Assembly: GCA_004195045.1 (NCBI GenBank) | Contig: SGBC01000001.1 | Span: 1 to 64,000 of the forward strand | DNA length: 64,000 nucleotides | Direction of reading: 5' to 3' | From: Candidatus Acididesulfobacter guangdongensis | GTDB taxonomy: Bacteria > SZUA-79 > Acidulodesulfobacterales > Acidulodesulfobacteraceae | Shown here: positions 4,785 through 36,087 of the stretch, piece by piece | Numbering within the stretch: position 1 is the stretch's first letter | Layout of the letters: every line of letters begins with the position of its first letter | The notes under the pieces: model-generated | The model's database searches: none | Told to the model about the DNA's origin: nothing | What the model saw: the letters and a program-made list of their open reading frames with translations, nothing else | Made by a program: the position numbers and the translations under genes

Positions 4785-4836
4785 CTACCTTGACACGGTA
4801 GGGGTCGGCGGTTCGAGACCGCCCGTGCCTACCAGT
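4785..4836 (+). repeat. attL: 3' half of tRNA-Val(GAC), 47-bp direct repeat
   Basis: Positions 4790-4836 are identical to 36041-36087. The sequence is the anticodon loop (TTGACAC, anticodon GAC), the 3' anticodon strand GGTAG, a variable loop, the T arm (GGCGG-TTCGAGA-CCGCC), a 3' acceptor strand and CCA. On this left copy the preceding CTACC also restores the 5' anticodon strand, but no D arm or 5' acceptor strand is present. It is therefore a tRNA-derived attachment site, not a functional tRNA. Confidence 0.9.
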
Positions 4837-4848: not shown

Positions 4849-5910
4849 TCAAAGCTTTTCAATTTCTTCTTTATAATCTACTGCAACGATTTTGCAACGG
4901 TCGTCTAAAATTTCAACTGCTTTCTTAATATGAGCTTGCGATAAATGAGAATATCTTAGGGTCATTTTTATATCTTTATGCCCTAAAAGCTCTTTAACGG
5001 TTGTTAAATCAATACCTTTCATTACTAATTGACTTGCGAATGTATGCCTTAGATCGTGAAAATGAAAGTCTATTATACGAGACTTCCTTAATGCAGTTGC
5101 AAAGCTCCGTTTATGGTTATCATACGGCTTTAAGGTTTTTTGATTAAAGAATACATAAGGAACGTCTATCCGTCTTACAATATCTATAAGAGTTTTAAAT
5201 AAAGTATTATTTATCGGTATTTCCCGCCTTTCGCCGTTCTTTGTTATATCAAGCAAAATTATCCGGTTCTTTAAATCAACCCTATCCCAAGTCAACTGCA
5301 GAATTTCCGATTTTCTCATGCCGGTATTTAACGCCGTTATAACGATAGGTTTTAAATAGTTATCGCAGCTGTCAATTAAGCGCTCCGCCTCTTCGTCGGA
5401 TAAATATCTTAAACGCTTATTTTCGCCTTTAAGCTGCTTTGCTTTCCGGACCCGCTTCAAATCTTCTTCGGTTATCATTTCCCAATCTAAAGCTTTATTA
5501 TACATTGCTTTAAATACCGTTAATATCTTATTAATATAAGATATTTTATAATCGTTTTTTAGATAATCGCTCTGGAGCTGCTCCATGTCGTTAATTGAAA
5601 TTTGATTTAATTTAAGTTTGCCGATTCTTTTTACAAGTATACCGATAATATAGCCTTTTACCTTAGCCCCTTTCTGTCTGCCGGACATCCATTCAATATA
5701 CTTTCCTGACAAATCATCAAAAGTATAAGAACGTTCAATTTCTTTTTCTCTTATAGGCATAACGCCGTTAATAATTTCATTACGCCTGTTTAAAAAAATC
5801 TCTTCGGCAAACTTTTTATTTTTGGTTTTTGTCGACTCGTAAATACGCTGTCCGTTAAGCTGAAACTTCATAAAATAATAAGGGCTGTTTTTTCTTTTGA
5901 AAAGTCCCAT
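4849..5910 (-). CDS. int: Tyrosine recombinase (integrase) of the 31-kb element
   Basis: Integrase of 353 residues with catalytic Arg in NTGMRKSEILQL, HDLRHTFAS, GHKD and Tyr in LRYSHLS. The C-terminus ends 13 bp from the attL repeat, so the recombination site abuts the gene. The last codons contain a TGCAACG doublet that recurs inside the right end and is probably an arm-type binding site for this enzyme. It should catalyse excision and integration at tRNA-Val together with the small excisionase-like protein two bases upstream. Confidence 0.95.
   Translation of the reverse strand: MGLFKRKNSPYYFMKFQLNGQRIYESTKTKNKKFAEEIFLNRRNEIINGVMPIREKEIERSYTFDDLSGKYIEWMSGRQKGAKVKGYIIGILVKRIGKLKLNQISINDMEQLQSDYLKNDYKISYINKILTVFKAMYNKALDWEMITEEDLKRVRKAKQLKGENKRLRYLSDEEAERLIDSCDNYLKPIVITALNTGMRKSEILQLTWDRVDLKNRIILLDITKNGERREIPINNTLFKTLIDIVRRIDVPYVFFNQKTLKPYDNHKRSFATALRKSRIIDFHFHDLRHTFASQLVMKGIDLTTVKELLGHKDIKMTLRYSHLSQAHIKKAVEILDDRCKIVAVDYKEEIEKL
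4880..4901. promoter_or_regulatory. Putative integrase arm-type site, left
   Basis: ACTGCAACGATTTTGCAACGGT holds two TGCAACG direct repeats 11 bp apart, one helical turn. A copy with a single mismatch lies at 35901-35922 inside the other end. Paired sites just inside both termini are what lambda-type integrases bind. Here the site also codes for the integrase C-terminus. Confidence 0.6.
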
Positions 5911-6221: not shown

Positions 6222-7118
6222 TTAAAATGCGTTTACGGCATTTCTATTGTTCAGTATTTTTCTTAGCTCTATTTGAACGGGTCTTTGCTCTATCGTATAT
6301 GTCCATAATGCCGGATATAAGGCTCCGATGTCTTCTTCTATTACTTCGGTTCTTTCATTTAATAAAGCCTGGGCTTTTAAAAGTCCCAAGCACCAAATCT
6401 GCCTTCTTTCGCTTATCACTATATTATTTAATTCTAAATTTTCAATCAAATCCGCAAATAATTCTTTTATTTTATTTTCTAAATGAATTTTTTTAACATC
6501 ATTTTGCAATGTTAAAATATCATCTAAACTTACTTTTAAATCATTAGCGCAATAATCGTCTATGTTATAAAGTCTTAGCCTTTCTTCTTTTAGCCTTAAT
6601 CTTTTCAGTTCATATCTCAATAAAAATCTATCGTATAAAGCTTCTAAAGAATCCCCCTGTCCGGGTTTTTCGTTTGAAGCTCCAAAAAAACTTATTAACG
6701 GAATTTTAAGTCTTCCCGGATTGTAATAAATCTTATCGCTCATTGCCAATAATAAACTTTGCAGCGTTTCTCCCTTCGCCTTAAAAAACTCATCGCCGAA
6801 AGCAATATGCGCCTCCGGCAAACGATATTCTATATTTCTAAGCATTCTGTCCAGGCTCTTTTCTTTTATGCTCCAATGCCCCATTATTTCTTCTTCGGTG
6901 GTTGAAGGCGTAAATAAGTATTCCCAATATTTTATTCCTTCTATATGGTCGCATACGCAATGCAAAACATGGCTTTTGGCAACTCCCGGAGGTCCCAAAA
7001 GCAATGCGTGTTTGCCTGTTGCTATTGCTAAAAATATACCGTCAATAATTTCCTGCCTTTTAATAAAATAATCATTAAGATTTTTCTTAATGTTTATAAT
7101 TTTTTGTAAGTATTCCAT
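6222..7118 (-). CDS. MoxR-type AAA+ ATPase at the end of the T4SS operon
   Basis: A 298-residue AAA+ protein. Walker A GPPGVAKS is at 42-49, a Walker B-like HIAFGDEFFK near 104-113, then the sensor-1-like SFFGASNEKP and the arginine-bearing YDRFLLRYEL. This fits MoxR/RavA ATPases, which remodel protein complexes, usually with a VWA partner; no VWA gene is present. Its start overlaps the end of the VirB1-like gene by 32 nt, so it belongs to the transfer operon. No VirB11 ATPase is found, and this protein may fill a related assembly role, but that is speculation. Confidence 0.8.
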   Translation of the reverse strand: MEYLQKIINIKKNLNDYFIKRQEIIDGIFLAIATGKHALLLGPPGVAKSHVLHCVCDHIEGIKYWEYLFTPSTTEEEIMGHWSIKEKSLDRMLRNIEYRLPEAHIAFGDEFFKAKGETLQSLLLAMSDKIYYNPGRLKIPLISFFGASNEKPGQGDSLEALYDRFLLRYELKRLRLKEERLRLYNIDDYCANDLKVSLDDILTLQNDVKKIHLENKIKELFADLIENLELNNIVISERRQIWCLGLLKAQALLNERTEVIEEDIGALYPALWTYTIEQRPVQIELRKILNNRNAVNAF

Positions 7119-7629
7119 ATATTCTTTTTACCTTTTCCTTATATCTAAAGCCGTCGCCGTTATGATAATTTTGCACGCCCTGCCAAATCCCGTTGGCTTG
7201 ATAATGTTTTAAAATAAATGCTCCAGCAAGTATATTTATTTTAGAAGTTAATAAATTTCCTATCGATAAATTTAGTCTTTTACCCCAAAAATTATAATTA
7301 ACCTGCATTAATCCGATATCTACGCTATAATTTTTTTTAATATAATATCGTGCGATATATATTGCTTCCTGTTTTGATTTAGGATATACCGCATTTCCGT
7401 TTATATCTAAAGCGTATGGATTTAAACCGCTTTCTACGTATGCAATTGATACTAATATTTTATAATTTGTTCCCGTAAGCGTTCCAGCCGTTTTAAATAT
7501 ATTGCCCGCTATTGATTCTCTTGCCGTAAATATTAAAATAGAGCCTATTAAGATTAATTGAATAACAAAATATATCTTAATATTATTTAGAGCCTTAAAT
7601 CGCATTTCAGAACGTTTATTCTTCTTCAT
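7087..7629 (-). CDS. virB1: VirB1-like lytic transglycosylase
   Basis: Periplasmic peptidoglycan-cutting enzyme that opens the wall for the secretion channel. The SLT fold is visible: ILVSIAYVESGLNPYALD carries the catalytic Glu, VDIGLMQVNYNFW the GLMQ motif, and YHNGDGFRYKEKVKRIY the C-terminal box. An N-terminal membrane or signal segment precedes it. The frame is open further upstream, but the ATG at 7629 gives a normal signal anchor (MKKNKRSEMRF) and a 14-nt overlap with virB6. About 180 residues. Confidence 0.88.
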   Translation of the reverse strand: MKKNKRSEMRFKALNNIKIYFVIQLILIGSILIFTARESIAGNIFKTAGTLTGTNYKILVSIAYVESGLNPYALDINGNAVYPKSKQEAIYIARYYIKKNYSVDIGLMQVNYNFWGKRLNLSIGNLLTSKINILAGAFILKHYQANGIWQGVQNYHNGDGFRYKEKVKRIYGILTKNYKH

Positions 7630-8698
7630 CGCTTGAGTTTTTCTTTTTTCTGTATGGGTGAAATTTATGCTGATTTGCATTTTCGGCGGCGTGTCTTGCC
7701 GCTCCCTTTTTTTTACTTGCTATATCTCTTGTAGCCTGAAGGGTTCCTCTTCTCGCCATTTTAGCGCCTATCCCTCCCATAAGACCGCCGCCGGTTATGC
7801 CTGCCGCTCCTAATGCCGCCGCCGTTCCGCCGGTTATTACCATTGTCGTTGCCGCACTCGCTATCGAACCCAAAGCCCCCATTCCGCCTTTATAAAGTTT
7901 TCCTGTAAGCATAGGGGCAAGTATAACAAGAACGATAAATAAAACAAGTATCGCAGCCATTACAATCGGATCTGTATTAGTTAATGAAGGAAAATCTATG
8001 TATGTACTTATTAACGTGTTTAATATTTGATATAAAATAGCAAGAGTAATAAGCCATGACATTATTTCTATCGTATCTCTTATCCAAGCCTTTAAAAGAG
8101 GTCTTAGAGGCGGTATTATGCTTAAAGATATTACTATAGGTCCTATTAAATACATAAAGGCAAGCAGTAAAAATCTGAGCCATTCGATTATCCATGCCGC
8201 TAATCCCGCAATAGCCGCAGCCAAAGCACCAAGTATGAGATTTAAATTTAAATCCCATATGCTTATTTTCGGAGAGGTTTCGCTGAATAAAGTCTTAAAG
8301 AACTCGCTCACCTCGTTAGCCGGCATAATAGCCGTGGCTATACCATGAATTACCGCTTCAAGCCAATTCCAGACCACATTATACATAACAAGCAAAGATA
8401 TAATGAATATCATATAAAAGATTTCTTTCATATATCCGCCTTCTTCATTCAAATATAACCTTATAGCCATAGCAAACAAAAATATCAAAAATGCAAAAGG
8501 TATTATTGTTTTTTCTAAAGGGACAATATTGCTATTCATTAAAGTTTGGAATGTAGCCGGTATTGTTGAAGCCGTTCCTATTTTAGGATACTTCGTTATA
8601 ATGTTGGTCTGTCCTGTATCTGCAAAAGCCGTCCCCGCTCCCGCCGTTATAGATATAAATAATATTATTAAAACAAATATTTTTTTCATAATTACCAC
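7616..8698 (-). CDS. virB6: VirB6/TrbL-like inner-membrane T4SS channel protein
   Basis: A 360-residue polytopic membrane protein with an N-terminal signal (residues 1-26) and about six further hydrophobic segments between 58 and 270. A Gly/Ala-rich stretch (near 275-315) and a strongly basic tail follow. Length, topology and position between VirB5 and VirB1 match VirB6/TrbL, the polytopic core of the inner-membrane complex. It overlaps virB5 by 7 nt. Confidence 0.82.
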   Translation of the reverse strand: MVIMKKIFVLIILFISITAGAGTAFADTGQTNIITKYPKIGTASTIPATFQTLMNSNIVPLEKTIIPFAFLIFLFAMAIRLYLNEEGGYMKEIFYMIFIISLLVMYNVVWNWLEAVIHGIATAIMPANEVSEFFKTLFSETSPKISIWDLNLNLILGALAAAIAGLAAWIIEWLRFLLLAFMYLIGPIVISLSIIPPLRPLLKAWIRDTIEIMSWLITLAILYQILNTLISTYIDFPSLTNTDPIVMAAILVLFIVLVILAPMLTGKLYKGGMGALGSIASAATTMVITGGTAAALGAAGITGGGLMGGIGAKMARRGTLQATRDIASKKKGAARHAAENANQHKFHPYRKKKNSSDEEE

Positions 8699-9510
8699 CC
8701 TGCCGCTAAACTTGTAGCCAATGACTGATTAGTTTCCATATCGGTCTTTTGCTGATATGTCGCTTTCTGTGAATCTCTTAACCGCCTTGCCGTCTCCGCT
8801 GCATTAGCCTGATTCTGAACCGCCTGATTTTGCAGTATTTCGCTTAAAAGTTCTATGATTTTTCCGTTTGCGCTTGCCGTTAATCTTTCTGCGTCAAGTC
8901 CGTTTGCTTTTGTTGCTTCCTGTGAAATTAAATGTCCCGCCGTCGTTGCCGTCTGCGCTTCTTTTGAGTCTAAAGCCGCCGTTGAAGATTCGCTATTGAT
9001 TGCGGATTCTTCTATCTGCTGCGTGTCCTGCGCCGTCGAGTTTACTCCAAGAGCGGAGTCCCACGGATTAGCCGCATTTAAATCGCTATTGCCGAGACCG
9101 TTGACATAATTTACAAGACTATTATCCAAACTTGCGTTCGGAGTTCCTGTCGGCACACTCGGTATAAACTGCTTATAATTTTGCAAAAAGCTGTCCATTC
9201 CGTCCAAACTTTTCAAATTCTGAATAAAGCCCGTGGCGGTGTAATAATAATTTTGATAAGTTTGAAATTGATTATATGCCGCCATAGCCTCCTTAACTGC
9301 GTCCGCATTCCTTACATCTTGCAATGCGGTTTGAATTTTAGTATTGATTGCCTGAACTTCGGTATTAGCTGCCGTTGCCGTTGTTTCAACATCAGTAGCT
9401 ATTGACTGCGGATTAGGCACTGACAAAACCGCTAATTGAGCATTAGCTTTTTTAACCGGCATTATCAGCATTCCTGCGATTAATAAAATAATCATACTTA
9501 ATTTTTTCAT
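8692..9510 (-). CDS. virB5: VirB5/TrbJ-like minor pilus protein
   Basis: A 272-residue secreted protein with a clear signal peptide (cleavage after the ANA at about 22-24) and long, Ala/Gln-rich coiled helices, as in VirB5/TrbJ, the adhesin-like tip component of the conjugative pilus. The helical region YNQFQTYQNYYYTATGFIQ recalls TrbJ. It overlaps virB6 by 7 nt. The assignment rests on architecture and operon place, as this family is poorly conserved. Confidence 0.72.
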   Translation of the reverse strand: MKKLSMIILLIAGMLIMPVKKANAQLAVLSVPNPQSIATDVETTATAANTEVQAINTKIQTALQDVRNADAVKEAMAAYNQFQTYQNYYYTATGFIQNLKSLDGMDSFLQNYKQFIPSVPTGTPNASLDNSLVNYVNGLGNSDLNAANPWDSALGVNSTAQDTQQIEESAINSESSTAALDSKEAQTATTAGHLISQEATKANGLDAERLTASANGKIIELLSEILQNQAVQNQANAAETARRLRDSQKATYQQKTDMETNQSLATSLAAGW

Positions 9511-10282: not shown

Positions 10283-13018
10283 TTATAACTCTCTCAGCGT
10301 AAAATGTCCTTTCGGATATTTTCTTGCTAAATTATATAAAAGCTCCGCTTTTGAATTAACATTGTTAAACTCTTCTTTTAAAAGGTTGTCGTTTTTGTTG
10401 TTAGTGCATATCCAGTAATCTACGCTTGAAGGTTCTATCTTTAAAATAACAGAATTGCCGCCATATTTCATAAAAGCCTGCGAGTAATAGCCGGGCCTTG
10501 ATTTTAACTCGGATATTACTACCGTTTCCCTGTCATTCATACCAAATCTTTCTATCACATCAATGCCGTCTTCTACATTAAGAAAAATCTTAATAAAAGT
10601 ATTATTCATTATTGCGTCTGCCGCAGGGTGTTTTATAAAATCTTTAGGGCTTTGCGATATGGTTGTTATATCTAAATTATATTTTCCGCCCATTCTATAT
10701 AAATCCGCTATCATCTTAGCCGCTATTTTATTAAGTCCAAATTCGTGAAATTCGTCTAAGACAACTTGATAGCGCCCCTTCTTTTTATTCTGCATTTTTC
10801 TTAAGACCATAAAATTAATCGTAAAAAATACCACGTCTCTAAGTTTAGGGTGCGCTTTTAAAAGACTTAAATCAAAACTTACAATTCTATTATTAATATT
10901 AAGTCCTCCTTTTGAATTTAATATTTTTGAATACATTCCGCTTGTCCAATAGTGCAAAGCTTTTCCTAATATTCTTGCCTGTTTTGCGTCATCATTGTCC
11001 CGCCCTTTATATTCAAACATTTCCGTTTCTACATTTGATAAAATCGGCATATCGTTATCGTCTATATTGTCGTAAGCATAAATTATGCACTTTTCAATTA
11101 TATTTAATTCATTTTTAGTTAATTCTTCCCCTTTTTCGCTTGTAAGAAGTTCAATAATCGTCGCTAAAAATTGAATTGTGTCAGAATCATAATTATCGCC
11201 TTTGATAATTTCATTTTTAACCGGAAATAAATTTAAACTGTCTGTTTCTAAATTTACCTGAAAATAAGAACCTTCAAAAATTTCAGTAAGAAATTTATAA
11301 TCCGGTCCGATATCTATTGTCGTAAGTTCATTATCGCTATTACTCATTAAGAAGTTTGTCAGCAAATAAATACTTAAAAAAGACTTTCCTTTGCGGGTGC
11401 TTCCGGCTATTATTTTATGCTTTGCGTTCAAATCTCTGTCGTCAAAATCGAAATTAATCAAATCATCATTGTCGGTTTTAAGCAGCGTCTGTAAATTATC
11501 CGTCCCTTTCCAGTTCTGCCACATCGGAAGCCACATAGCCAAAGCGTCGGTTTTAAAAACAAAGGTTAATTTATTTAAATTTCCGTGTCCGGGCAAAAAA
11601 CTTAAAAACAATCTTTCGTGATCGCTGTCAAATTTTATTGCCTGCGCATTGGATAATTTTGTGAAAGACTGTATTGCCGCCTCTATTTTTGAACTTAAAT
11701 TGCTGTATATTTTATCTTTTATAATTACGCATATGCTGACATTGAAAAGTTTTTGCGTTGAGCTTTGCATTTCTTTCAATAAAGAGTCTTGCTCGTCAAA
11801 TTTATTCTGCGCTTCATAATTATTGTTACTTGTTTTTAAAATCAAATCGCTCTGTTTTACCTTCCTTTTTAATTTGTTCAACTCATTTTCCATAATAGGC
11901 ACGTCGATTGCAACTTGCAGACTGTAAGTAAAAGGCAATTCCATTATAGTTTTTAGATCCGTTATCATTGCAGATTCAGGCGGCACTTTCATATTTACCG
12001 CTACGCAATAATAACCGTCTATAAAAAAATAGCTCCATGAGGGTTTTGCCGGCGAAAATGCAATTTGTTCTCTTGTGGTTAATTCAGGATTAAATCTTTT
12101 CGGAGCGTTTATAATATTTTTTCTTTCCGGATTTAAATGACTATATACATAGTCTATCAGGTCTTCATCGGTCAATCTTTCATACTCTGCTTTCATAGAC
12201 GCAAAATATTCTTTAGTTCTGTTTAATATTATATTTAATTCCGTTAAAGTATTTTCTCTTTCTTCTTCCGCTATTTTCTTATAGTTGTTAAATTTTACGG
12301 ACATATCCATAAAATCTTTTTTAAAACCGTTTCTTTTCAGCGTTATAAAAAAATAAATATTTACCTTCCTTATTTTTTGATTTCTTAAAGCCTCTAATTT
12401 TGAATTAAAAATTAATTTTTCAATTTCTGTTTCAGGTTGCATATTTTCATATAGTCTAATCATTTTTTCATTGCCGTCGTCTACATCGTAAATTATCTGA
12501 ACCTTTAATTTTTCGGTTAGATTATTAAGCATGCTTCTGACGCCCGCTACAATGTCGGTAGCTTCATTTTCATCTACTAAAAATATATTTTTCCCAGCAA
12601 TTTTAAAACCTGCCGTATAATCTTCGTTAAGTCCTACAATGCAATTGTCCTCTATACTCCAGATGTTGATTTTATTGTAGAAGCTTTTTAACCCTTTCTG
12701 TTCTTTAGCTTTTTTCACTGTTTGTTTGCCCTCTGTTATCTTTATATAATCTAAATCTTTATTAGCTAACGTATAAGCTTTATTGCTTCCTAAATAATAA
12801 AATAAATTAGAAGTGTAGTTCGGCGGTTTGTTAAATTTAAATATTCTGAGTCCCGCATAACAAACCGCCACTATCGCTAAATTTAAAAAGGTATTCTGAG
12901 ATATTGAAAAGGCTATCCCGAAAACCGCCCCCACTAAAAATAAATCCGTTATCTCAAGACCTAAGAATTTAGGTCTTACAGCTAAACTTCTTTCAACATT
13001 TACCTGAATAAGCGGCAT
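10283..13018 (-). CDS. virB4: VirB3-VirB4 fusion, conjugation ATPase
   Basis: A 911-residue protein. Residues 1-95 resemble VirB3/TrbD: RPKFLGLEITD, then two membrane segments between about 23 and 60. The rest is a VirB4/TrbE ATPase with Walker A GSTRKGKS at 539-546, a Walker B-type YQVVLDEFHEFG in the C-terminal third and the downstream TTISQSPKDF motif. VirB4 powers pilus assembly and substrate transfer at the inner membrane. Natural VirB3-VirB4 fusions are known in other systems, and no separate virB3 is present here, consistent with fusion. Confidence 0.92.
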   Translation of the reverse strand: MPLIQVNVERSLAVRPKFLGLEITDLFLVGAVFGIAFSISQNTFLNLAIVAVCYAGLRIFKFNKPPNYTSNLFYYLGSNKAYTLANKDLDYIKITEGKQTVKKAKEQKGLKSFYNKINIWSIEDNCIVGLNEDYTAGFKIAGKNIFLVDENEATDIVAGVRSMLNNLTEKLKVQIIYDVDDGNEKMIRLYENMQPETEIEKLIFNSKLEALRNQKIRKVNIYFFITLKRNGFKKDFMDMSVKFNNYKKIAEEERENTLTELNIILNRTKEYFASMKAEYERLTDEDLIDYVYSHLNPERKNIINAPKRFNPELTTREQIAFSPAKPSWSYFFIDGYYCVAVNMKVPPESAMITDLKTIMELPFTYSLQVAIDVPIMENELNKLKRKVKQSDLILKTSNNNYEAQNKFDEQDSLLKEMQSSTQKLFNVSICVIIKDKIYSNLSSKIEAAIQSFTKLSNAQAIKFDSDHERLFLSFLPGHGNLNKLTFVFKTDALAMWLPMWQNWKGTDNLQTLLKTDNDDLINFDFDDRDLNAKHKIIAGSTRKGKSFLSIYLLTNFLMSNSDNELTTIDIGPDYKFLTEIFEGSYFQVNLETDSLNLFPVKNEIIKGDNYDSDTIQFLATIIELLTSEKGEELTKNELNIIEKCIIYAYDNIDDNDMPILSNVETEMFEYKGRDNDDAKQARILGKALHYWTSGMYSKILNSKGGLNINNRIVSFDLSLLKAHPKLRDVVFFTINFMVLRKMQNKKKGRYQVVLDEFHEFGLNKIAAKMIADLYRMGGKYNLDITTISQSPKDFIKHPAADAIMNNTFIKIFLNVEDGIDVIERFGMNDRETVVISELKSRPGYYSQAFMKYGGNSVILKIEPSSVDYWICTNNKNDNLLKEEFNNVNSKAELLYNLARKYPKGHFTLREL

Positions 13019-13468: not shown

Positions 13469-13903
13469 CTAATTTAAATTTAATTTAACTTTATCGTTTT
13501 TTTTAATACCGTATTCTTCCGCTATTCCCGCATTAACTTCTAAAACTCTGTTTACAAGGGTATCGGAATAGTATTTTTTGCAATTTTTAGTTGCGCATAC
13601 AGGTAGATTTTTATAAATATTAACTACTCTGTTATTTAGAATATAAATACAGTCGATAGGCATTAGCATATTCTTCATCCAGATTGCCACTTTTGCCGGC
13701 GGCATAATCATCAATAGCCCTGTATTTTTATCTAAATGCCTGATAAACATTAAGCCTAAAATCCACTCTTTAGGCTTGTTTGCTATTAAAACATTAGCAC
13801 TAAAAGTCTTTTGTCCGTATATTGTTATTTTACTTGCCCTATAAGCATAAGCAGTGTTTATGCTTATGCTTATAGAAAATATTATCAAAATTATATATTT
13901 CAT
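13469..13903 (-). CDS. DUF192 secreted protein
   Basis: A 144-residue protein with a signal peptide (residues 1-20) and the DUF192 hallmarks: WILGLMFI, GLLMIMPP, IWMKNMLMPIDCIYI, VLEVNAGIAEEYGIKKND. The function of DUF192 is unknown. It occurs here between VirB10 and VirB4, overlapping virB10 by 4 nt, so it is a built-in part of this transfer operon. Two extra cysteines (VCATKNC) sit in the middle of the domain. Confidence 0.85.
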   Translation of the reverse strand: MKYIILIIFSISISINTAYAYRASKITIYGQKTFSANVLIANKPKEWILGLMFIRHLDKNTGLLMIMPPAKVAIWMKNMLMPIDCIYILNNRVVNIYKNLPVCATKNCKKYYSDTLVNRVLEVNAGIAEEYGIKKNDKVKLNLN

Positions 13904-14895
13904 CTATTAAATCCGTTTAAAAATATTAATTTTATTGTTTTTCCCGCTTTTACGGTTATAGTAGTTTTATTATTAGCCTGCGCATTTGCAAGACTGTTTG
14001 CCGCCTGATTGGTTAAAGACGAGCCTGCCGCATATTTTAGCTGGTCATTCATCGAATAGGGATTAGAATTATTTCCTCCAAAGAATAAACTTCCGAGTCC
14101 TAACACCGCTTCCCCTACTCCTTCTAATGTGTCTGCGAGCGCTGGCGAGTTTACCTGTCCCTTTATGCCTGCGCTGCCGTTATTTGATAGCGCAAGTGCA
14201 TTAATATTGTAAGTTTCGCCGTTCGGATATACTGCCTGCGAAAATGCGATATTAACTCTATCCTGTGAATGAATCGTCGATACCGTTCCTAAAAATATTG
14301 TTCCCGCAGGCATAACAAGTTTATGGTTCTCCGTATATATACTTTGAAGAAGCTTTGCTTTGGCGGGAGCTTTCGTATTATAAGAAAAGACTGCCGTTGT
14401 AAGTTCTGCGTATGCCGTAGTTCCCGGCGGTATTCCGTTAAAATACGATATTATATTTTTTTTAGTTTTTTCCGTTAAAGACGTTTTAAGAAGTTTAGGC
14501 AATTTTTTCTTATAAATAAATACCGTCATTTTAGAATTTAATTTAGCTTTTTTTAATTTGATTTTTTCTTTCTGTTTATTAATTTCCTTGATTTTATGTT
14601 TTGCTTCTATCTTTGCGATTGCGATATTCCTTTTTTGTATCTTCTGCCTGAAAGATAAAAGGTAATTTTTTAAGTTTTTATTTACCTTCTTTGTTTGCGC
14701 CTGTTTTTTAATAATAGGCGTTTCTTGAGATTCACCTTTTTTAGCAAGTCCCATAAGCTGGCTGAAAATATAAATTGCAAATACTACTACCGCAAACCCG
14801 AATAATACGATTATTAAAGTTTTTTGTTTTTTAGTATTTTTTATATTTTTTTCTGTTTCTTCAGGCGGCGTCTGCTCTATATTATTATTTCCCAT
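13900..14895 (-). CDS. virB10: VirB10/TrbI-like T4SS core protein
   Basis: A 331-residue bitopic protein: cytoplasmic tail, one membrane helix at about 27-46, a long Lys-rich linker (50-135) and a C-terminal beta-barrel domain (about 150-331) with VMPAGTIFLGTVST and the amphipathic ALADTLEGVGEAVLGLGSL region, typical of the VirB10/TraB/TrbI fold spanning both membranes. The linker is unusually rich in Lys rather than Pro. It overlaps the lipoprotein gene by 11 nt. Confidence 0.88.
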   Translation of the reverse strand: MGNNNIEQTPPEETEKNIKNTKKQKTLIIVLFGFAVVVFAIYIFSQLMGLAKKGESQETPIIKKQAQTKKVNKNLKNYLLSFRQKIQKRNIAIAKIEAKHKIKEINKQKEKIKLKKAKLNSKMTVFIYKKKLPKLLKTSLTEKTKKNIISYFNGIPPGTTAYAELTTAVFSYNTKAPAKAKLLQSIYTENHKLVMPAGTIFLGTVSTIHSQDRVNIAFSQAVYPNGETYNINALALSNNGSAGIKGQVNSPALADTLEGVGEAVLGLGSLFFGGNNSNPYSMNDQLKYAAGSSLTNQAANSLANAQANNKTTITVKAGKTIKLIFLNGFNR

Positions 14896-15106
14896 TTTTT
14901 ACCCCCTGTATTTTTTTATTTAATGTTCCTGCCGAAGATATTACAGGCAAGCCTTCTAATTTATCTGCTTTAATCCCAAGTTTATATTGTTCCGTTTTAT
15001 TTAATTTATGATTATTTATGTTGCTATTGCTATAAGCACAACCTGCCATAATAGCCATTGTGCCTGCAATTGAAAGCATAAGAAGGATTTTTTTAATAAT
15101 TGTCAT
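14885..15106 (-). CDS. virB7: VirB7-like lipoprotein
   Basis: A 73-residue protein with a lipoprotein signal and lipobox IMAGC. The short mature part contains no other cysteine. Placed between VirB9 and VirB10 with overlaps on both sides, it is best read as the VirB7 outer-membrane lipoprotein that stabilises VirB9. The family cannot be recognised from sequence alone; position and lipobox carry the call. Confidence 0.7.
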   Translation of the reverse strand: MTIIKKILLMLSIAGTMAIMAGCAYSNSNINNHKLNKTEQYKLGIKADKLEGLPVISSAGTLNKKIQGVKNGK

Positions 15107-15995
15107 TAGAATTGTTTCCTCCTTCCCCTAAACTATTAAAACTAAATTTCTTAATAATTTTATTTTCGCTAAATAATAAAGTTAAATTAACCGGCTGAGC
15201 TTTTTTAGCTTTAAAAATTATAAGTCCTGTTTTAATAGTTAAGGGCTTAAATGTTTTATTTATGAGGTTTGACTTATAAATCGGCAAAATATGTCCGCTA
15301 TATCTTGTATTTTCATTTAAAAACAAAAACGGTTCGGAAGAATTATTTATAATTTTATAACTTATATAATCGTATCCGTCTGCTCTTGAAATGAAATTTA
15401 TTTTTACTTTAAACTTGCCGTTTAAAGCGGTTTGCGATTGATTTATTTTTACTTTATTTATTTTTAGCATTAATCCTAAAACAAATCTTTTATCGCCTGT
15501 GATTTTTTCTTTTAATTTTGCCAGTCTTTCAAACTTACCATGGTATATCTTCTGCAATTTTGCTTCTTTTATTCTTAATTTTCTATCAAAAGCGTTTTTT
15601 ACATAAGTTCCTGACCACGGAGATTTTACAAAAATTATAAAATCCGCCATTTTTGCCGTTCCGGATATTATCCTGTATGAAAACTTTAAATTTTTTGTCA
15701 ATATTACAAGGTCTGTTTCCGCTCCTATTTTATATGTAATAGGTTTTATCACTATATCTTTACCGTATGCGCTCGCTCTAAAGTTTGAGGTATTTCCTAA
15801 AAATACCTTTAAAGCTTTAGAAGGTAGTATTATTGTAGTAAGATAACCCGGAGCGGTATAAATCGTATGTACTAAATTATGATAAGCAAATGTTTTTCCG
15901 ATTCTTCCTGAATAAACATATTTAATACTTTTGGCGTAAGCATTCGTAGTTAAAGCAAAAAATGCTATTAAAAATGTTAAAATAACCTTTTTCAT
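15093..15995 (-). CDS. virB9: VirB9/TrbG-like T4SS outer-membrane core protein
   Basis: A 300-residue secreted protein with a signal peptide (1-21), an N-terminal domain rich in beta strands (HTIYTAPGYLTTIILP, then FRASAYGKDIVIKPITY and DLVILTKNLKFSYRI, the VirB9/TrbG pattern) and a C-terminal beta domain (YDYISYKIINNSSEPFLF). It forms the outer-membrane ring with VirB7 and VirB10. It lies 8 nt after virB8. Confidence 0.85.
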   Translation of the reverse strand: MKKVILTFLIAFFALTTNAYAKSIKYVYSGRIGKTFAYHNLVHTIYTAPGYLTTIILPSKALKVFLGNTSNFRASAYGKDIVIKPITYKIGAETDLVILTKNLKFSYRIISGTAKMADFIIFVKSPWSGTYVKNAFDRKLRIKEAKLQKIYHGKFERLAKLKEKITGDKRFVLGLMLKINKVKINQSQTALNGKFKVKINFISRADGYDYISYKIINNSSEPFLFLNENTRYSGHILPIYKSNLINKTFKPLTIKTGLIIFKAKKAQPVNLTLLFSENKIIKKFSFNSLGEGGNNSNDNY

Positions 15996-18365: not shown

Positions 18366-18440
18366 TTTTAATCTCCTTTTTTATTTATTTTATTTAATTT
18401 ATCCTGGCATCCTTGATTGGTGCTTCTCTCTAATGTTTTT

Positions 18441-18828: not shown

Positions 18829-18862
18829 CTAATAAAAGATGGTTTTATTTCCTTATAAATTT

Positions 18863-18926
18863 GTTTAAATTGTAAAAAAACCGACAGGCTCGGTCTTTCG
18901 TGAAAGACTTTTTTTACAATTTAAAC
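18863..18926. other. Perfect 18-bp palindrome enclosing two hairpins
   Basis: Outer arms 18863-18880 and 18909-18926 are perfectly complementary. Inside are CCGA-CAGGC-TCGG and GTCTTTC-GT-GAAAGAC. This is the same three-way-junction plan as at 9637-9759. Confidence 0.65.
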
Positions 18927-18995
18927 TCCTTACTGCTTTTTGCTGAAATTATTATAAAGTAATATCGACCAACGGGAGATAAACACAGGTTAAAC

Positions 18996-19047
18996 TGCGA
19001 TTTTTGATAGTCGCCGGCGTAGCAGAAGTTTTTACGCCGGCATCATT
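18996..19047. repeat. Hairpin repeat, copy B (inverted relative to copy A)
   Basis: Stem GCCGGCGTA / TACGCCGGC. It is the inverted copy of 17785-17837, so A and B bracket the small genes and the palindromic region. Confidence 0.65.
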
Positions 19048-19055
19048 TTAGTGAT

Positions 19056-19088
19056 GTTTTTGTGCGGAGCGAAGCGGAGCACAAAAAC
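19056..19088. other. Hairpin downstream of the TM2 gene
   Basis: GTTTTTGTGC (19056-19065) pairs perfectly with GCACAAAAAC (19079-19088) around a GCGAAGC-containing loop. On the minus strand it follows the TM2-protein stop by about 25 nt and may act as a weak terminator. Confidence 0.5.
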
Positions 19089-19113
19089 TACTTACAAATT
19101 AAATCAACTGTTT

Positions 19114-19489: not shown

Positions 19490-19795
19490 CTATTCACCGT
19501 AATGCTTCTTTGCGGCATTAAAAAAGTTTTTATGAAAAGTGTTTCCAAGGTGTTTGACAACATTTTGAGCATTAAAGCAATTTTCGTTAGCTTTCGATAA
19601 ATCAAATTTCTTAGAATTCTGATTTACAAATTTCGGATTATTTTCGCATGCCTTATAAATCGTTTTAGCCTGCTTCTTATGTTTCATGTAATACGAATAA
19701 GAATGATAATTATTAACTTGATTATTTTTAGCACACCCGGATAAACCCGCAACAACTAAAAATAAAGCCCCAAAAATTAAATACAATTTTTTCAT
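19490..19795 (-). CDS. eexN: EexN-like entry-exclusion lipoprotein
   Basis: A 101-residue lipoprotein (lipobox GLSGC). The mature part has the EexN pattern: a YYM.H..Q...IY.ACENNP block followed by ENCFNAQNVVKH, with two further cysteines. EexN proteins sit in the membrane of carriers and block uptake of the same element. It lies in the coupling-protein operon, which supports a conjugation role. The family is short and divergent, so the call is good but not certain. Confidence 0.72.
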   Translation of the reverse strand: MKKLYLIFGALFLVVAGLSGCAKNNQVNNYHSYSYYMKHKKQAKTIYKACENNPKFVNQNSKKFDLSKANENCFNAQNVVKHLGNTFHKNFFNAAKKHYGE

Positions 19796-19886: not shown

Positions 19887-20594
19887 CTATATATAGTCAG
19901 AATTATCTATATCCGCTATAAAATCATCTAAATTAAGAACCTCTAATTTCTTAATAGTTTCATCTAATATAATTCTTTCATCTAAAGTTTTACCGCCTTT
20001 ATATTCATCTATTTTAATTAATTTTTCTTTAAATTTATTTGCATTGCCTCTAACTATATAGATAAGCTTGTTTATCTCTTTTGTATTTTGCAATGCTGCT
20101 AACTTTTTTTCGTATTTTATCATAGATTTATATTCTAATTCTATCTCAAATGCTATTTTATTTTTAATTAAAATTAAATCAGGAACTAACAACCAATCAG
20201 GTTTTGTTTTTTTAATGTTTAAATCTATTTCATAATCTATATTGCGATTATTTAGTATAGCCCCTATTTCTGCTATTATTAAGTGATGATTTGCATTATT
20301 GTTAAGGGCTACTCTGTTAATATTAATGTTAAAATATTTTATATCATTTTCAAAAGATTCTTTTAATACTTGATAACCTTTAATATCTAAAGTGTATATA
20401 TTTTCCATATTTTTAACTTTTAAAACCTTTATATAACCAAAATTACTTATTTTTTTTAATCTTGCATATAGAGTTTTTATTTTAACCATATATAATATAT
20501 TTATCGCTTTAAGATTTGCATATCTATGTTTATACAAGAACTTAAATAGAATTATGTCCTTTTTGCTTAAATCAACCCGTCTCTGTTTTCCCAT
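19887..20594 (-). CDS. Replic_Relax-like protein (candidate DNA-processing factor)
   Basis: A 235-residue protein with an N-terminal winged-helix region (DIILFKFLYKHRYANLKAI, then TLYARLKKISNFGYIKVL) and a C-terminal domain with NHHLIIAEIGAIL, KPDWLLVPDLIL and IAFEIELEYKS. The layout matches the replication-relaxation (Replic_Relax) family found next to coupling proteins in mobile elements. The PD...FEIE pattern may reflect a PD-(D/E)XK-like fold, which is inference. It lies 2 nt after the two-TM gene, in one operon with the TraD-like ATPase. As no known relaxase is present, this is the best candidate for oriT recognition or nicking. Confidence 0.68.
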   Translation of the reverse strand: MGKQRRVDLSKKDIILFKFLYKHRYANLKAINILYMVKIKTLYARLKKISNFGYIKVLKVKNMENIYTLDIKGYQVLKESFENDIKYFNININRVALNNNANHHLIIAEIGAILNNRNIDYEIDLNIKKTKPDWLLVPDLILIKNKIAFEIELEYKSMIKYEKKLAALQNTKEINKLIYIVRGNANKFKEKLIKIDEYKGGKTLDERIILDETIKKLEVLNLDDFIADIDNSDYI

Positions 20595-20596
20595 AA

Positions 20597-21076
20597 CTAC
20601 TCCAATTTAAATTTATCGTTATTTTGCGCCTGTGTTTTTGATTGTTTTTCTTCCTTGTTAAAATTCTTATCTTTAGTTTCATTGCCTACCTTTTCTTGAT
20701 ATTTAGCTTCAATGTTTATATGCCGTTTTTCTTCAGATTTTATGATTTTATAAGCTGTATACATAAAGATAGCTTCAAGAATAATGATGTTTTCTATTAA
20801 AAAATAAAAAGCTAACATAACTGCGCTATGTCCGATATTCAGATTAAGATATGTCCACTGTCCGCTTTTAATCAATATTTTTAACATTCCGTATTCTTTC
20901 CAAAAGTCCTTTCCGTAAAACCAATTTAATATTAAAATTGGCGCTGCAATACCTGAAACAAAAGCTGCAAATAAACCTATCAGCCATACCTTTGACATAT
21001 AATTTTGAAAACTGTGTCCTTTACCTAAACTATTGCTGTTATTGCCGCTGCTATTGCCGCTGCTTTGATTATTCAT
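20597..21076 (-). CDS. Two-TM protein, possible membrane half of a split coupling protein
   Basis: A 159-residue protein: Ser/Asn/Gly-rich N-terminus, membrane helices at about 30-52 and 84-108 with a roughly 30-residue loop, and a charged Lys/Glu/Gln-rich tail. VirD4/TraD coupling proteins normally begin with just such a two-helix membrane domain, which the adjacent ATPase lacks. I infer the domain is encoded separately. It could equally be an unrelated accessory membrane protein. Confidence 0.6.
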   Translation of the reverse strand: MNNQSSGNSSGNNSNSLGKGHSFQNYMSKVWLIGLFAAFVSGIAAPILILNWFYGKDFWKEYGMLKILIKSGQWTYLNLNIGHSAVMLAFYFLIENIIILEAIFMYTAYKIIKSEEKRHINIEAKYQEKVGNETKDKNFNKEEKQSKTQAQNNDKFKLE

Positions 21077-21114
21077 CGCTTCTCCTATAATATTATTATG
21101 AAGTGTCTATTTTA

Positions 21115-22257
21115 TTATCTTTCAATCTCCACTCTATTAAATTGAAGTCCTACTAATTCTAAATTTCCGTCTATTATTGCCTTTGCAAATGCCTGTCCGG
21201 GTTTTAATTTACTGAAAGCCTGCGGCTGTATAATATAATCTCTTCTTTCGCTTTTACTGATTCCCAATGTTCCTGTATTGTCTTTGCTTTCCGCTTTAAA
21301 TTCAAATATCTTATTTCCAAATAATTTTGAGATATCTTCATTTCTTATTGAATCCTGTTTCATAAAATATTTATTCTGACTGTTGGACAAAAGAATATCT
21401 AATAAAGCTTTATCAAATCTGTCTGCGTCCGATAAAGACTGTGTCATCATTACTAATTGAACTTTAAAGCTTCTAATTTCCTTTATTATTTTTGAAAATG
21501 AAGAAAACATTAAGTCTGCAAATTCATCTATACACAAACAAACATCATAGTTTAATTCTTTCGGCTTTCTCAGTCTTAAATTTTCTATAATCATTCTTCC
21601 CATGCTGTTTTCTTCCTGTATGTTTCTTAAACTAACCCAATTTACTTTAGAAAAATTAATATTATCCGCTTCATCTATATTAAAGTTTTTTGCTAAAACA
21701 TAAGGCTGTAATTTATCCATAAACCCGGAAATATATCCTGCATAATTTTTGTCTTCCACTAAACCGCCGGCAATAAGTTTTTCCGCTTCCGTCATTTTGC
21801 CGGCATGCTCTTTATATAACTTCGCAATATTGTCTTTATATAAAGCTATAAAGATTTTTTCAAAGGTAGGTTTTTCAATATATTTTAAAATAAATCTTAA
21901 AGCCTGTGTTGCAAATGACTGATAAAAACTTTCCGCCGTTGATATTTCTTTCGGATACAAACTGTTAATTATTAGCTCTGTTATTTCCTTTTCGCTTAAC
22001 CCTTTTAGAAGGTTTATATTTGATTGAAAATCAAATATATTTGCCTCATCTCTTAATTTTTTAGCCGTGTCTTTTGCCGCTATTTCTCCCTTACCGTCAA
22101 TAATAGTTATAATCTTTTTTCCTATCCAAAAATTTAATAATACGCTTTCCGTTTTACCCGCTCCAGTTTCTCCAAAAACTATTGTGTGTCTATCCGGCAA
22201 TTCAATTTCAATTTCTTTATTATTTTCTTCTGTTAATATTGTTGCTTTTGCAAACAT
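21115..22257 (-). CDS. traD: TraD/VirD4-like coupling ATPase without membrane domain
   Basis: A 380-residue RecA-fold ATPase. Walker A GETGAGKTE is at 29-37, close to the N-terminus; Walker B VCLCIDEFADLM is near 240, followed by VQLVMMTQSLSDADRF and the NKYFMKQDS strand, as in TraD/TraG/VirD4 proteins that bring DNA to the type IV channel. It has no N-terminal membrane helices and is shorter than most family members (500-700). The gene heads the operon with the two-TM and Replic_Relax-like proteins. Confidence 0.85.
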   Translation of the reverse strand: MFAKATILTEENNKEIEIELPDRHTIVFGETGAGKTESVLLNFWIGKKIITIIDGKGEIAAKDTAKKLRDEANIFDFQSNINLLKGLSEKEITELIINSLYPKEISTAESFYQSFATQALRFILKYIEKPTFEKIFIALYKDNIAKLYKEHAGKMTEAEKLIAGGLVEDKNYAGYISGFMDKLQPYVLAKNFNIDEADNINFSKVNWVSLRNIQEENSMGRMIIENLRLRKPKELNYDVCLCIDEFADLMFSSFSKIIKEIRSFKVQLVMMTQSLSDADRFDKALLDILLSNSQNKYFMKQDSIRNEDISKLFGNKIFEFKAESKDNTGTLGISKSERRDYIIQPQAFSKLKPGQAFAKAIIDGNLELVGLQFNRVEIER

Positions 22258-22412: not shown

Positions 22413-22694
22413 GTTTGCCTGTCGTCCGTGAAAGTTCCAATCACGGCACGACCAACCCAAAAAAAGCGTTTACGGTTTTTGCGAAGCAAAAATAAATTTC
22501 GCAAGAAATTTAAGTGCGGTCTTGTTTTAAAATTTTCGTCAGAAAAGTTTAGTTTGGCGAAGACAAACCACGAATTAGCGAAGCGTTTGCCGAAGGCAAT
22601 TTGTGAAACAAGATTTTTTGGGTTGGTCGTGCCGTGATTGGCTAGCGAAGCGTTTTGCGAAGCAAACCATAAACGGCACGGACGACAGGCAAAC
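22413..22694. repeat. Nested perfect inverted repeats, 282 bp
   Basis: Outer 18-bp arms (22413-22430 / 22677-22694) and inner 28-bp arms (22437-22464 / 22614-22641) are both perfect. Inside them TCTTGTTTT (about 22530) can pair with AAACAAGA (22606-22613), with one base unpaired. The centre contains GCGAAGC-type words also seen in the 18.4-19.1 kb structures. It separates the coupling-protein operon from the partition operon. Perfect arms of this length imply recent origin or strong selection. Confidence 0.7.
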
Positions 22695-22852: not shown

Positions 22853-23068
22853 TCAGTCTTTAATATCCTTGTTATTTTTCTGTTCCTGTTCTATTCTTTT
22901 TGCAATAATGTTTCTTGCGTTATTTACCACCGTTCTTGCGATTAATGCCTTTTCTACTCCAAGCAGTTTCGCCAGTTCCGTTATTGAATTATACAATTCG
23001 CTATCTAATGAAATTGTAATTGATTTCTTTTTGCCTTTTGTGTTTTTTATACCGTCAAATATATCCAT
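22853..23068 (-). CDS. Ribbon-helix-helix DNA-binding protein
   Basis: A 71-residue protein. KKSITISLDSELYNSITELAKLLGVEKALIARTVV reads (in parts) as a basic beta strand plus two helices, the RHH/CopG fold. It directly follows parB (start adjacent to the parB stop) and may be a partition or copy-control regulator. Confidence 0.75.
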   Translation of the reverse strand: MDIFDGIKNTKGKKKSITISLDSELYNSITELAKLLGVEKALIARTVVNNARNIIAKRIEQEQKNNKDIKD

Positions 23069-24001
23069 TTACTCATCTCCTTTAATTTTAAATTTATTTA
23101 AATACTTAATAAATTTACTTGCCGTTGCATTGTCTTTAGCGTATATTGCCACAATATTATCTGTGCCAAAATAACTGTCAATAATATCAAATCTTATGTC
23201 AATTTTAATGTCTGTATGCGTATCGTTAAAATGGTCTATATCGGTTTGGATTATAGAATAATTCTCTTTAACAGCTTTATTAAAACGCTGGTCTCTTTCT
23301 TTATAGTTTCCCCATTCTTCTTTATTATCTTTATTTAAATTAATATTATTTTCTTCCTTATTTGTATCTAAGTTATTTCTTTTATTCTTAACTTCCCCTG
23401 CAGTAATGCTGTCATAATTTTTAATAAGCTTTTTCTTTTCTTGTTCATCTTTAATCTTTGATATTTCGATTGCTTTTTTAATTGTGCTGCCCGTGATTTT
23501 TTCTTTTAATTCTTCAGGCATTTCACATATACTTAATATCTCTTGCACATACGATTTTGATTTATGAATCTTTTCCGCTATCTGTCTAATAGTCAATCCT
23601 TTTTCCTTCAATTGTTTATAAACATTAGCAAGCTCTGGCTTGCTCAAATCTTTTCTTTGAATATTTTCTAAAAGCTGATAAATCAATATGTCTTCTTCTT
23701 TAATGTTCTTTACAAGACAAGGCACACTGTTTAATCCCGCCCTTTTAGAAGCCTCTAATCTTCTTTCTCCGGCTATCAAAAAATATTCGTTATCTTTATT
23801 ATTATTTCTCATCACTAAAAGATTTTGATTAACTCCAAATTCTTTTATTGATTCCGTAAGTTCGTCAATATCTTTCAAAACATTTTCTTTATTTCTAATC
23901 TGCTCATTGACAATTATTTCATCTATATTTATATCAATAACGCTTGCTTTATCTTCCGTATCTTTGCCAATCCAATCTAAAGGATCGTTTAATTTCTTCA
24001 T
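23069..24001 (-). CDS. parB: ParB partition protein
   Basis: A 310-residue ParB/Spo0J homolog with the GERRLEAS box (about 79-86), ENIQRKDLSKPELA, and HTH TIRQIAEKIHKSKSYVQ. A charged linker and a C-terminal dimerisation region follow. The ATG overlaps the parA stop by 4 nt. It should bind parS-like sites near the element's replication region; I did not identify an obvious parS. Confidence 0.92.
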   Translation of the reverse strand: MKKLNDPLDWIGKDTEDKASVIDINIDEIIVNEQIRNKENVLKDIDELTESIKEFGVNQNLLVMRNNNKDNEYFLIAGERRLEASKRAGLNSVPCLVKNIKEEDILIYQLLENIQRKDLSKPELANVYKQLKEKGLTIRQIAEKIHKSKSYVQEILSICEMPEELKEKITGSTIKKAIEISKIKDEQEKKKLIKNYDSITAGEVKNKRNNLDTNKEENNINLNKDNKEEWGNYKERDQRFNKAVKENYSIIQTDIDHFNDTHTDIKIDIRFDIIDSYFGTDNIVAIYAKDNATASKFIKYLNKFKIKGDE

Positions 24002-24762
24002 AAAATCTCCCTGTTTCTACTTTTAATTATTTGACTGACTTCTTCTCCGAGTTTTTCATAATCTTCATAACCTCTGCAATTTTTCTTATAATAAAATATG
24101 CTTTTGCCGGTTCCCGGAGCTTCCTTTAAAGAAGTATTTACCCTGATAATAGTTTTAAAAACTTGATTATCAAAATGTTTATGCAAATTTTGCAGTATAT
24201 CTTTTGATATTGAAGTATTTGCATAACCTGTGGCAAGATAGCCTAATATTTCAAGTTTGCCGTTAAGTTTCTTCTTAACCATGCTTACCGTTTTTAGAAA
24301 ATCAGACAATCCTTCCATTGCAAAATATTCAGTTAAAACCGGCACTATTATTTTATCCGCCGCTACTAAAGCGTTTATAGACAATAAGCCCAAGCTCGGC
24401 GGACAATCAATAATAATAATATCGTGGTATAAATCTTTTACGATATCTTTCAAAATCATTTCTCTGCCGACTTCGTTTACTATTTGCAGCTCAACTCCTG
24501 CAAGCGCTATATTCGCCGGCGCTACTTCTAAATTTGAATCTGCGATTTTTATTATATCCTTAATGTTTTTTTCTCCTGACATTACCGCTGCCATTGAATT
24601 ATCTGCGGTTTCTCTAATTCCTAAATGAATACTTGCGTTTGCCTGCGGGTCTATATCAATTAATAATACATTGTCGTAATTTCTTTTTAATGCAACGGCA
24701 AGATTTACCGCCGTCGTTGTTTTACCTACTCCGCCTTTCTGATTCATAATAGCAATTATCAT
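23998..24762 (-). CDS. parA: ParA partition ATPase
   Basis: A 254-residue ParA with Walker A KGGVGKTTTAVNL (10-22), DIDPQANAS and IDCPPSLGLLS. It pairs with ParB in the next gene. Its presence on an integrating element suggests that the excised circle is maintained for some time, as known for several ICEs. Confidence 0.93.
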   Translation of the reverse strand: MIIAIMNQKGGVGKTTTAVNLAVALKRNYDNVLLIDIDPQANASIHLGIRETADNSMAAVMSGEKNIKDIIKIADSNLEVAPANIALAGVELQIVNEVGREMILKDIVKDLYHDIIIIDCPPSLGLLSINALVAADKIIVPVLTEYFAMEGLSDFLKTVSMVKKKLNGKLEILGYLATGYANTSISKDILQNLHKHFDNQVFKTIIRVNTSLKEAPGTGKSIFYYKKNCRGYEDYEKLGEEVSQIIKSRNREIL

Positions 24763-24838: not shown

Positions 24839-25861
24839 TTATGGTCCGTTAGGGTTCTCGCTATTAAGCATATTTGATACTTCTGCTTTCAACTTTAATA
24901 TTGCAAATACATTGCCCAAATCGTCATCTTTGTAATTATTTTCTATAATTATTTCTTTTATCCTGTTATTTTTTTTATCTTTCGGCATTTTTGCGATATA
25001 TTCATCTGCAAGCTTTTCAGCTTCCTCTTCTTTTTCCCTTTCTTTTATTTCAGATACAATTTTTTGTTTTTCGTTTGCTATTTTTTGCTGTTCTTGCAAA
25101 ATTATTTCGTCCACATCCGAAAATAAGCCGTCTTTTAATGTTTTTATTAATAAGCCGCAGGGGTTTTTTACAGCTATCTTTCCTTTTTTAGCCTGATAAT
25201 CTAAATATTTGCCTGCAATAGCGGCGTCTTTATGCTGCCTTTCTATCTTAAACAAGACATTCTCATCTTCATTCTTAAATAATTCAAGGACTTTTAGCGA
25301 GGGCGTGTGTGAGTTATTTTTATTATTTTCTTCACACACGTTTTTTATAGCGGTAGGATTAACGAAATCGTTTTGTGTGTGTGATTCTTTTTCTTTTAGT
25401 GATTCTTCTTTATCTTTTATTCTTATTAGTTGCGGATTTACCGTATACGGCTTAACCGTATACGGCTTTTCAGGACACGGTTGAGATTGAGTATTATCAA
25501 TGCTTTGCTGATTTAAAGGTTCTTCTCCGATAAATTCTTTATAAATTTCTTCGTAATTATCGTTAAGCGATAAAATACGATATAAAGTTTTAGAAAATTT
25601 GCCGGCGGTTTTATGTTGCTGTTTTTTTAAAAGCAGTTTAGCTTCAATTAATTCATTCATTACCCTGTATAATTTATCTCTTCCGACTCTTCCGTGTTCA
25701 CAAAGATATTGAATTGACGGATATGAAATTCCCCCAAACGACCTTAGAAGTAAATATAATCCCATTACCTCCAGAGACAAAGATTTTGACCTTATTAGAT
25801 CATTTTCAACCCAAGTAAACGGAGCTGCTATTTTATTTTCAATTATTATTTTTTCTTCCAT
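24839..25861 (-). CDS. RepA-like replication initiator (winged-helix N-terminus)
   Basis: A 340-residue protein. The N-terminal domain (LSLEVMGLYLLLRS..., YLCEHGRVGRDKLYRVMNELIEAKLL) is the HTH_36-type winged helix common to plasmid and phage replication proteins. A low-complexity linker (120-190) precedes a charged helical C-terminal part. It is followed by parA, parB and an RHH gene, the usual order of a replication-partition module. The linker DNA carries two tandem CCGTATACGG palindromes, encoding the repeated peptide PYTVKPYTV. Initiator role is inferred. Confidence 0.68.
   Translation of the reverse strand: MEEKIIIENKIAAPFTWVENDLIRSKSLSLEVMGLYLLLRSFGGISYPSIQYLCEHGRVGRDKLYRVMNELIEAKLLLKKQQHKTAGKFSKTLYRILSLNDNYEEIYKEFIGEEPLNQQSIDNTQSQPCPEKPYTVKPYTVNPQLIRIKDKEESLKEKESHTQNDFVNPTAIKNVCEENNKNNSHTPSLKVLELFKNEDENVLFKIERQHKDAAIAGKYLDYQAKKGKIAVKNPCGLLIKTLKDGLFSDVDEIILQEQQKIANEKQKIVSEIKEREKEEEAEKLADEYIAKMPKDKKNNRIKEIIIENNYKDDDLGNVFAILKLKAEVSNMLNSENPNGP
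25441..25465. repeat. Iteron-like pair of CCGTATACGG palindromes inside rep
   Basis: Two perfect copies of the 10-bp palindrome, 15 bp start to start, in the linker of the RepA-like gene. Initiators of several plasmids and phages bind repeats inside their own gene, so this is a candidate origin. Confidence 0.5.
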
Positions 25862-27551: not shown

Positions 27552-27603
27552 ATAATTACTAATTTTGCAACTATATATAAGTAAAAATTAACTATACTTT
27601 AAG

Positions 27604-27735
27604 AACAAAGATTTAAATCTTGGCATAAATAATTGCATAGATTCAATGTATGCAATCTTAAAAAAACAGGAGAAGCAGGGAAGAGATACTAATCCTAATA
27701 AAAAAGCTAAAATGGAAGGTAATAATAAATCATAA
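27604..27735 (+). pseudogene. Duplicated 3' end of the XRE repressor gene
   Basis: Reads as KDLNLGINNCIDSMYAILKK then EKQGRD and a different tail, ending in TAA. It corresponds to the last 40 or so residues of the XRE repressor, with a few substitutions and a changed C-terminus. No start codon or HTH precedes it. It marks the right edge of the inserted HEPN gene. Confidence 0.8.
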
Positions 27736-30404: not shown

Positions 30405-30430
30405 CTAATTATAGTATGTAGAACTATTGT

Positions 30431-36040: not shown

Positions 36041-36087
36041 TTGACACGGTAGGGGTCGGCGGTTCGAGACCGCCCGTGCCTACCAGT
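36041..36087 (+). repeat. attR: 3' half of tRNA-Val(GAC), 47-bp direct repeat
   Basis: Identical to 4790-4836. Here the sequence upstream (AAACGTTT) does not restore the 5' anticodon strand, so this copy is the shorter tRNA fragment left at the distal end after integration. Confidence 0.9.

Follow-up and report, generated by a model that had tools for sequence, protein, structure and literature searches.

Which gene would process the DNA of a conjugative element in which no relaxase has been recognized? The question is raised by a stretch of 64,000 nucleotides from Candidatus Acididesulfobacter guangdongensis (contig SGBC01000001.1; the whole stretch analysed is called the window), in which a sequence-only reading had seen VirB-type transfer genes and no MOB-family relaxase in any frame. 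That reading singled out three genes at 19887–22257 as a possible undescribed DNA-processing and docking unit. Sequence comparison and structural modelling together make it very probable that these genes form the mobilisation module of an integrative conjugative element (ICE), with the winged-helix protein as its MOBC (TraX/MobC) relaxase. The computed support consists of profile-level family membership, fold, conserved catalytic-type residues, the gene's context in mobilisable relatives and a covarying inverted repeat.

The element and its genes

The DNA that hosts the three-gene unit is an ICE with tRNA-Val repeats at both ends (Table 1). The two 47-bp repeats are identical and represent the 3′ end of tRNA-Val(GAC), a gene that is intact in relatives; ARAGORN missed the tRNA at the element ends because only 3′ fragments lie there, and it was the relatives that revealed it. 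The 3′ end of tRNA-Val(GAC) is an integration hot spot common to several genomes of the phylum, where pairs of its 37-bp core lie 186 bp to 17.6 kb apart (hot-spot loci: window 4790–36087; G000:C3:8853 and 9039; G007:C4; G010:C1; G011:C12).

Table 1. Features of the element; positions are those of the window.
Feature	Position	Strand	Basis
att repeat, 3′ end of tRNA-Val(GAC)	4790..4836	+	element boundary
Tyrosine integrase	4849..5910	-	PF00589
VirB1-like lytic transglycosylase (SLT)	7087..7680	-	Pfam/NCBIfam
Polytopic VirB6-like protein (inferred)	7616..8698	-	7 hydrophobic segments
Exported VirB5-like protein (inferred)	8692..9510	-	signal peptide-like N-terminus
VirB4/TraC-type ATPase	10283..13018	-	Pfam/NCBIfam
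VirB10 (TrbI)	13900..14895	-	Pfam/NCBIfam
VirB9 (CagX)	15093..15995	-	profile match below cut-off
EexN family lipoprotein (entry exclusion)	19490..19795	-	NF033894
Predicted MOBC-type relaxase, 235 aa	19887..20594	-	profile comparison, relatives' HMM matches, fold, context
2-TM protein, probable membrane anchor of coupling ATPase	20597..21076	-	TM segments; conserved in 7 element copies
VirD4/TraG-type coupling ATPase without transmembrane domain, 380 aa	21115..22257	-	profile match, hydrophobicity
Candidate oriT, nested long inverted repeat	22413..22694	-	repeat, folding, covariation
Ribbon-helix-helix-like small protein	22853..23068	-	weak PF01402/PF12651, below cut-off
ParB	23069..24001	-	profile match
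ParA	23998..24762	-	profile match
HTH_36 replication-initiator-like protein	24839..25861	-	profile match
att repeat, second copy, element end	36041..36087	+	repeat comparison

Of the VirB1–VirB10 type genes seen earlier, profiles recovered VirB1, VirB4, VirB9 (below cut-off) and VirB10; VirB5, VirB6 and VirB8 are putative assignments based on gene order and hydrophobicity, and the ORFs scanned yielded no VirB11. The EexN-like lipoprotein, also named in that reading, scored 41 bits against the NCBIfam cut-off of 33. The ribbon-helix-helix-like protein is possibly a relaxosome accessory or a partition protein. A MoxR-type AAA ATPase (6222–7118) adjoins VirB1 in the transfer region, and defence-type cargo occupies 26661–35629 (two HEPN proteins, a GmrSD restriction enzyme, an N6/N4 DNA methylase and an HNH endonuclease). 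The interval 18366–19113, which holds no listed ORF of 60 aa, contains several AT-rich inverted repeats that are perfect or nearly so (18568–18593/18656–18681, 18863–18880/18909–18926 and 18441–18463/18806–18828).

All three ORFs of the unit are present on the minus strand, each with a good ribosome-binding site, and are separated by gaps of 38 and 2 bp. In two distant elements (L022:11336–13719 and L021:9665–11938), the relaxases of which are 26–29% identical to that of the window, the order ATPase, 2-TM protein, relaxase is kept.

The winged-helix protein and the MOBC superfamily

The 235-aa protein has no curated match in Pfam, NCBIfam or PHROGs, and the main ORFs of the element have no Pfam match to an HUH or other canonical MOB relaxase (MOBP/Q/V/F/H/T). 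Over the host genome PF13814 (Replic_Relax) found nothing and NF041423 (“MobC family replication-relaxation protein”) gave no more than a weak match at another place (E 0.09); no relative was found in viral contigs, and neither the window relaxase nor the relaxases of integrative mobilisable elements (IMEs) matched plasmids by tblastn. PF13814 is recognized as MobC by CONJscan and equals the MOBC family in IME work (PMC5357655). TraX, the experimentally studied MOBC prototype, combines a restriction-endonuclease-like active site with an N-terminal winged helix (PMC12857230).

The family to which the protein belongs comprises 11 members, the window protein and ten homologues from metagenome genomes of the same phylum, and it is among the relatives that HMM matches appear, all of them below curated cut-offs. 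PF13814 matches 6 of the 11 (best 1.1e-5), with L017 at 24.7 bits against a cut-off of 25.3 and the match in L020 beginning in the winged helix and reaching the catalytic region; NF041423 matches five (best 5.8e-13), including L020 with 43.5 bits over residues 10–183. When the family was compared by hhalign with an alignment of TraX-type MOBC proteins (pAM373, pTEF1, pLIS5 and relatives; CloDF13 was left out, as MobB and MobC are unannotated in its record), the match had a probability of 96.3, an E-value of 1.5e-9 and a score of 69.2 over 160 columns, against at most 20.2 in score and 1.1 in probability for 60 column-shuffled controls and 13.6 for the reversed one. The motifs N-x-x-H-H-L, D, FEIEL-x2-K, RY and LIYV are aligned. 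Comparison with a single TraX sequence was weak (E 0.0086), and the result is decisive only with the TraX alignment; MOB-suite types pAM373 itself as MOBC, and the annotation given to its TraX is replication-relaxation protein.

The layout of the protein is a winged helix (residues 1–84) followed by a PD-(D/E)XK-like domain (P138-D139, E150, E152, K156), the order also found in TraX of pAD1/pAM373 and MobC of CloDF13, which at ~260 aa are somewhat longer. P138, D139, E150 and K156 are invariant in all 11 members, and Glu152 is replaced by Gln in one distant member (L021). The earlier description as a winged-helix, Replic_Relax-like protein is borne out. An AlphaFold model of the full protein (pLDDT 85) has an N-terminal winged helix of MarR type (Z 9.6); a PDB search with it returned almost only winged helices, and the C-terminal domain was therefore modelled alone (pLDDT 86). 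The best PDB matches of the isolated domain are mostly restriction endonucleases and nickases at Z 6–7, among them EcoT38I, EcoO109I, BsaWI, R.BspD6I, the nickase Nt.BspD6I and Vsr. In this modelled structure each single Z is middling (under 8), and what suggests the fold is the consistency of the PD-(D/E)XK match list. Window relaxase and TraX/MobC further share the FEIEL-K-RY-LIYV motifs, a nearby coupling gene and a nearby long inverted repeat, at ~26% identity over aligned columns, with scores below curated cut-offs.

Context bears on function independently of sequence similarity. Four small integrated elements (L016, L018, L019 and L020) encode a relaxase homologue ~43–46% identical to that of the window, followed by an excisionase and an integrase; neither a coupling protein nor VirB4 was found in them (the L019 contig is 8 kb long). 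Since mobilisable elements require a relaxase gene, this arrangement argues for relaxase function. Were the winged-helix protein instead a transcriptional regulator or a restriction-like nuclease, as its MarR-like winged helix and the lack of a curated match for the window sequence would allow, its family would hardly be kept beside an integrase in mobilisable relatives that offer no other candidate, nor would relatives match MobC/Replic_Relax HMMs. Transfer would then depend on mobilisation in trans or on an unseen relaxase; elsewhere in the host genome there are indeed three further coupling proteins, which have TM segments, but VirB4, VirB9, VirB10 and a coupling ATPase are encoded by the element itself, and the relaxase profile PF03432 is absent from the whole genome. 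This alternative is considered highly improbable.

By profile comparison, relatives' HMM matches, fold and context, the winged-helix protein is a member of the MOBC superfamily, and the statement that the element has no MOB-family relaxase is not supported: the protein is very probably a divergent MOBC relaxase. In the HMM check proposed with that statement, no canonical MOB family was found in the main ORFs, and PF13814 missed the window protein and matched six of its relatives. The relaxase is too diverged for curated models, so HMM scans would call the element relaxase-less, and such elements would therefore be under-counted in uncultured lineages.

Coupling ATPase and two-TM protein

The coupling ATPase has a Walker A motif (GETGAGKT) and matches PF12696 (6e-12) and PF02534 (1e-8); no match was found among PDB sequences. 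No hydrophobic segment was detected in it or in its counterparts in L014, L015, L017, L021 and L022, and the 2-TM protein that follows has segments at residues 32–50 and 86–104, in agreement with the split into a soluble ATPase and a separate membrane protein first read from the letters. A 2-TM protein of 127–159 aa follows a TMD-less ATPase in seven element copies (window, L014, L015, L017, L021, L022 and L048), two of them distant, so that the conservation of the trio is not a matter of chance.

Coupling proteins without a TMD, some with a small membrane partner, are an established class (PMC7434980, PMC7431656). In pIP501 a soluble VirD4-type ATPase, TraJ, is likewise encoded with a small membrane protein, TraI, its proposed anchor (PMC7434980, PMC13037476); the element described here differs in its MOBC relaxase, its VirB9/VirB10 channel as in diderm bacteria, and the position of the anchor gene between ATPase and relaxase. 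By contrast, the coupling protein of pAM373 has three N-terminal TM segments of its own, and CloDF13 MobB also has three (PMC7431656).

The 2-TM protein is probably the membrane anchor of the coupling ATPase, as suggested by an adjacency that holds even where ATPase identity is only 47–53%. It might instead be a small channel subunit in the membrane that is unrelated to the ATPase, which would then bind the channel by itself: a membrane partner of this kind is not necessarily used by TMD-less coupling proteins, and transfer by TcpA continues, at a reduced rate, when its TMD is removed (PMC7431656). The strictness of the adjacency over seven copies speaks against this, as does a topology (two helices and a ~35-residue loop) resembling the N-terminal domain of VirD4 proteins, and an unrelated subunit is held to be rather unlikely; the anchor reading is retained. 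The co-directional DNA-processing and docking unit proposed earlier thus stands as a unit, but it is not undescribed in kind, because MOBC relaxases and the TMD-less class have both been published. With both halves known, it is the combination that appears to be undescribed: the new part seems to be a TMD-less coupling ATPase with its membrane partner paired with a MOBC relaxase, a pairing present in 7 of the 7 element copies compared.

A candidate origin of transfer and the small relatives

A nested inverted repeat, 282 bp long and with a conserved interior of 149 bp, is situated upstream of the coupling gene; its outer arms (22413–22430/22677–22694; 18 bp) and inner arms (22437–22464/22614–22641; 28 bp) are 100% complementary. 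Among the repeats listed for the window, these arms are the only G+C-rich perfect long ones, and as a single strand the repeat folds with a z of -10.9. When five elements are compared, the 46 arm pairs show 99.1% pairing, with compensatory changes at 13 of them; none of 500 shuffles reached this covariation score, and slid versions scored near zero. Between the window and L017 the repeat core is more conserved than the relaxase gene (89% vs. 64% of aligned bases identical).

The repeat is probably the transfer origin, oriT, of the element. Comparable repeats lie between coupling gene and MOBC relaxase in pAM373 (z -14.9, with 12-bp repeats) and in Listeria pLIS5 (z -9.1, with direct repeats beside it that were read by eye from the sequence). 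In the 2002 work of Francia and Clewell, oriT2 of pAD1 and pAM373 reportedly comprises a large inverted repeat and 5-bp repeats with a period of 6 bp, and TraX reportedly nicks inside it. Like oriT2, the candidate oriT is a nested long inverted repeat close to the genes for coupling protein and relaxase; it is longer and differs in its place upstream of the coupling gene. Direct repeats of 6-bp period exceed the shuffled maximum in L016, L018, L019, L020 and L017 and are not significant in the window (0.53 vs. a shuffled maximum of 0.57).

The repeat adjoins the genes for the RHH-like protein, ParB and ParA, which would suit a partition site, and a replication structure, a regulatory attenuator or an inserted palindromic repeat are further alternatives, given that long palindromes can be mobile repeats and that its G+C-rich flanks are repeat-like. 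Among 30 genomes of the phylum, however, full-length copies occur only in these elements, with short partial matches on a relaxase-bearing contig (G003:C40), and the pAM373 and pLIS5 repeats occupy a similar setting. The partition-site alternative is also weakened by the small relatives: they lack ParA/ParB, yet keep a separate covarying repeat immediately behind the relaxase gene (z ~-13; 41 pairs, of which 10 are compensated), and the 6-bp-period direct repeats that come next exceed every shuffle. A role other than oriT is thus unlikely.

With the repeat taken as oriT, the element would first excise at the tRNA-Val repeats. Its winged-helix domain may then bind near the inverted repeat, where the metal-dependent PD-(D/E)XK domain would nick one strand; the coupling ATPase, itself soluble but kept at the membrane through the 2-TM protein, would pump the strand after delivering the relaxosome to the VirB-type channel. 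No covalent DNA intermediate has been seen for MOBC enzymes (PMC12857230). The compact set of relaxase, soluble ATPase, putative 2-TM anchor and candidate cruciform oriT offers a test case for how MOBC enzymes process and rejoin DNA, and for the role of the coupling-protein membrane domain.

A wider reading, put forward tentatively and judged possible rather than likely, is that MOBC relaxases of distant phyla share a long covarying cruciform origin, that the membrane domain of the ATPase is here a separate, possibly exchangeable gene, and that satellites with the same type of relaxase bring an exclusion lipoprotein and VirB6-like (in some, VirB5-like) parts and remodel the helper channel. SGI1-type islands replace parts of the helper pore (PMC5389848), and by analogy the small elements may do so as well; the genes are unrelated and the helper is another, the likeness being that pore-part genes are carried without the rest of the channel. 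ICE-related VirB6-like genes are carried by all four small elements (L016:5806–12664, L018:5908–11952, L020:5745–12513 and L019), EexN-like genes by L016, L018 and L020, and VirB5-like genes by L016 and L020.
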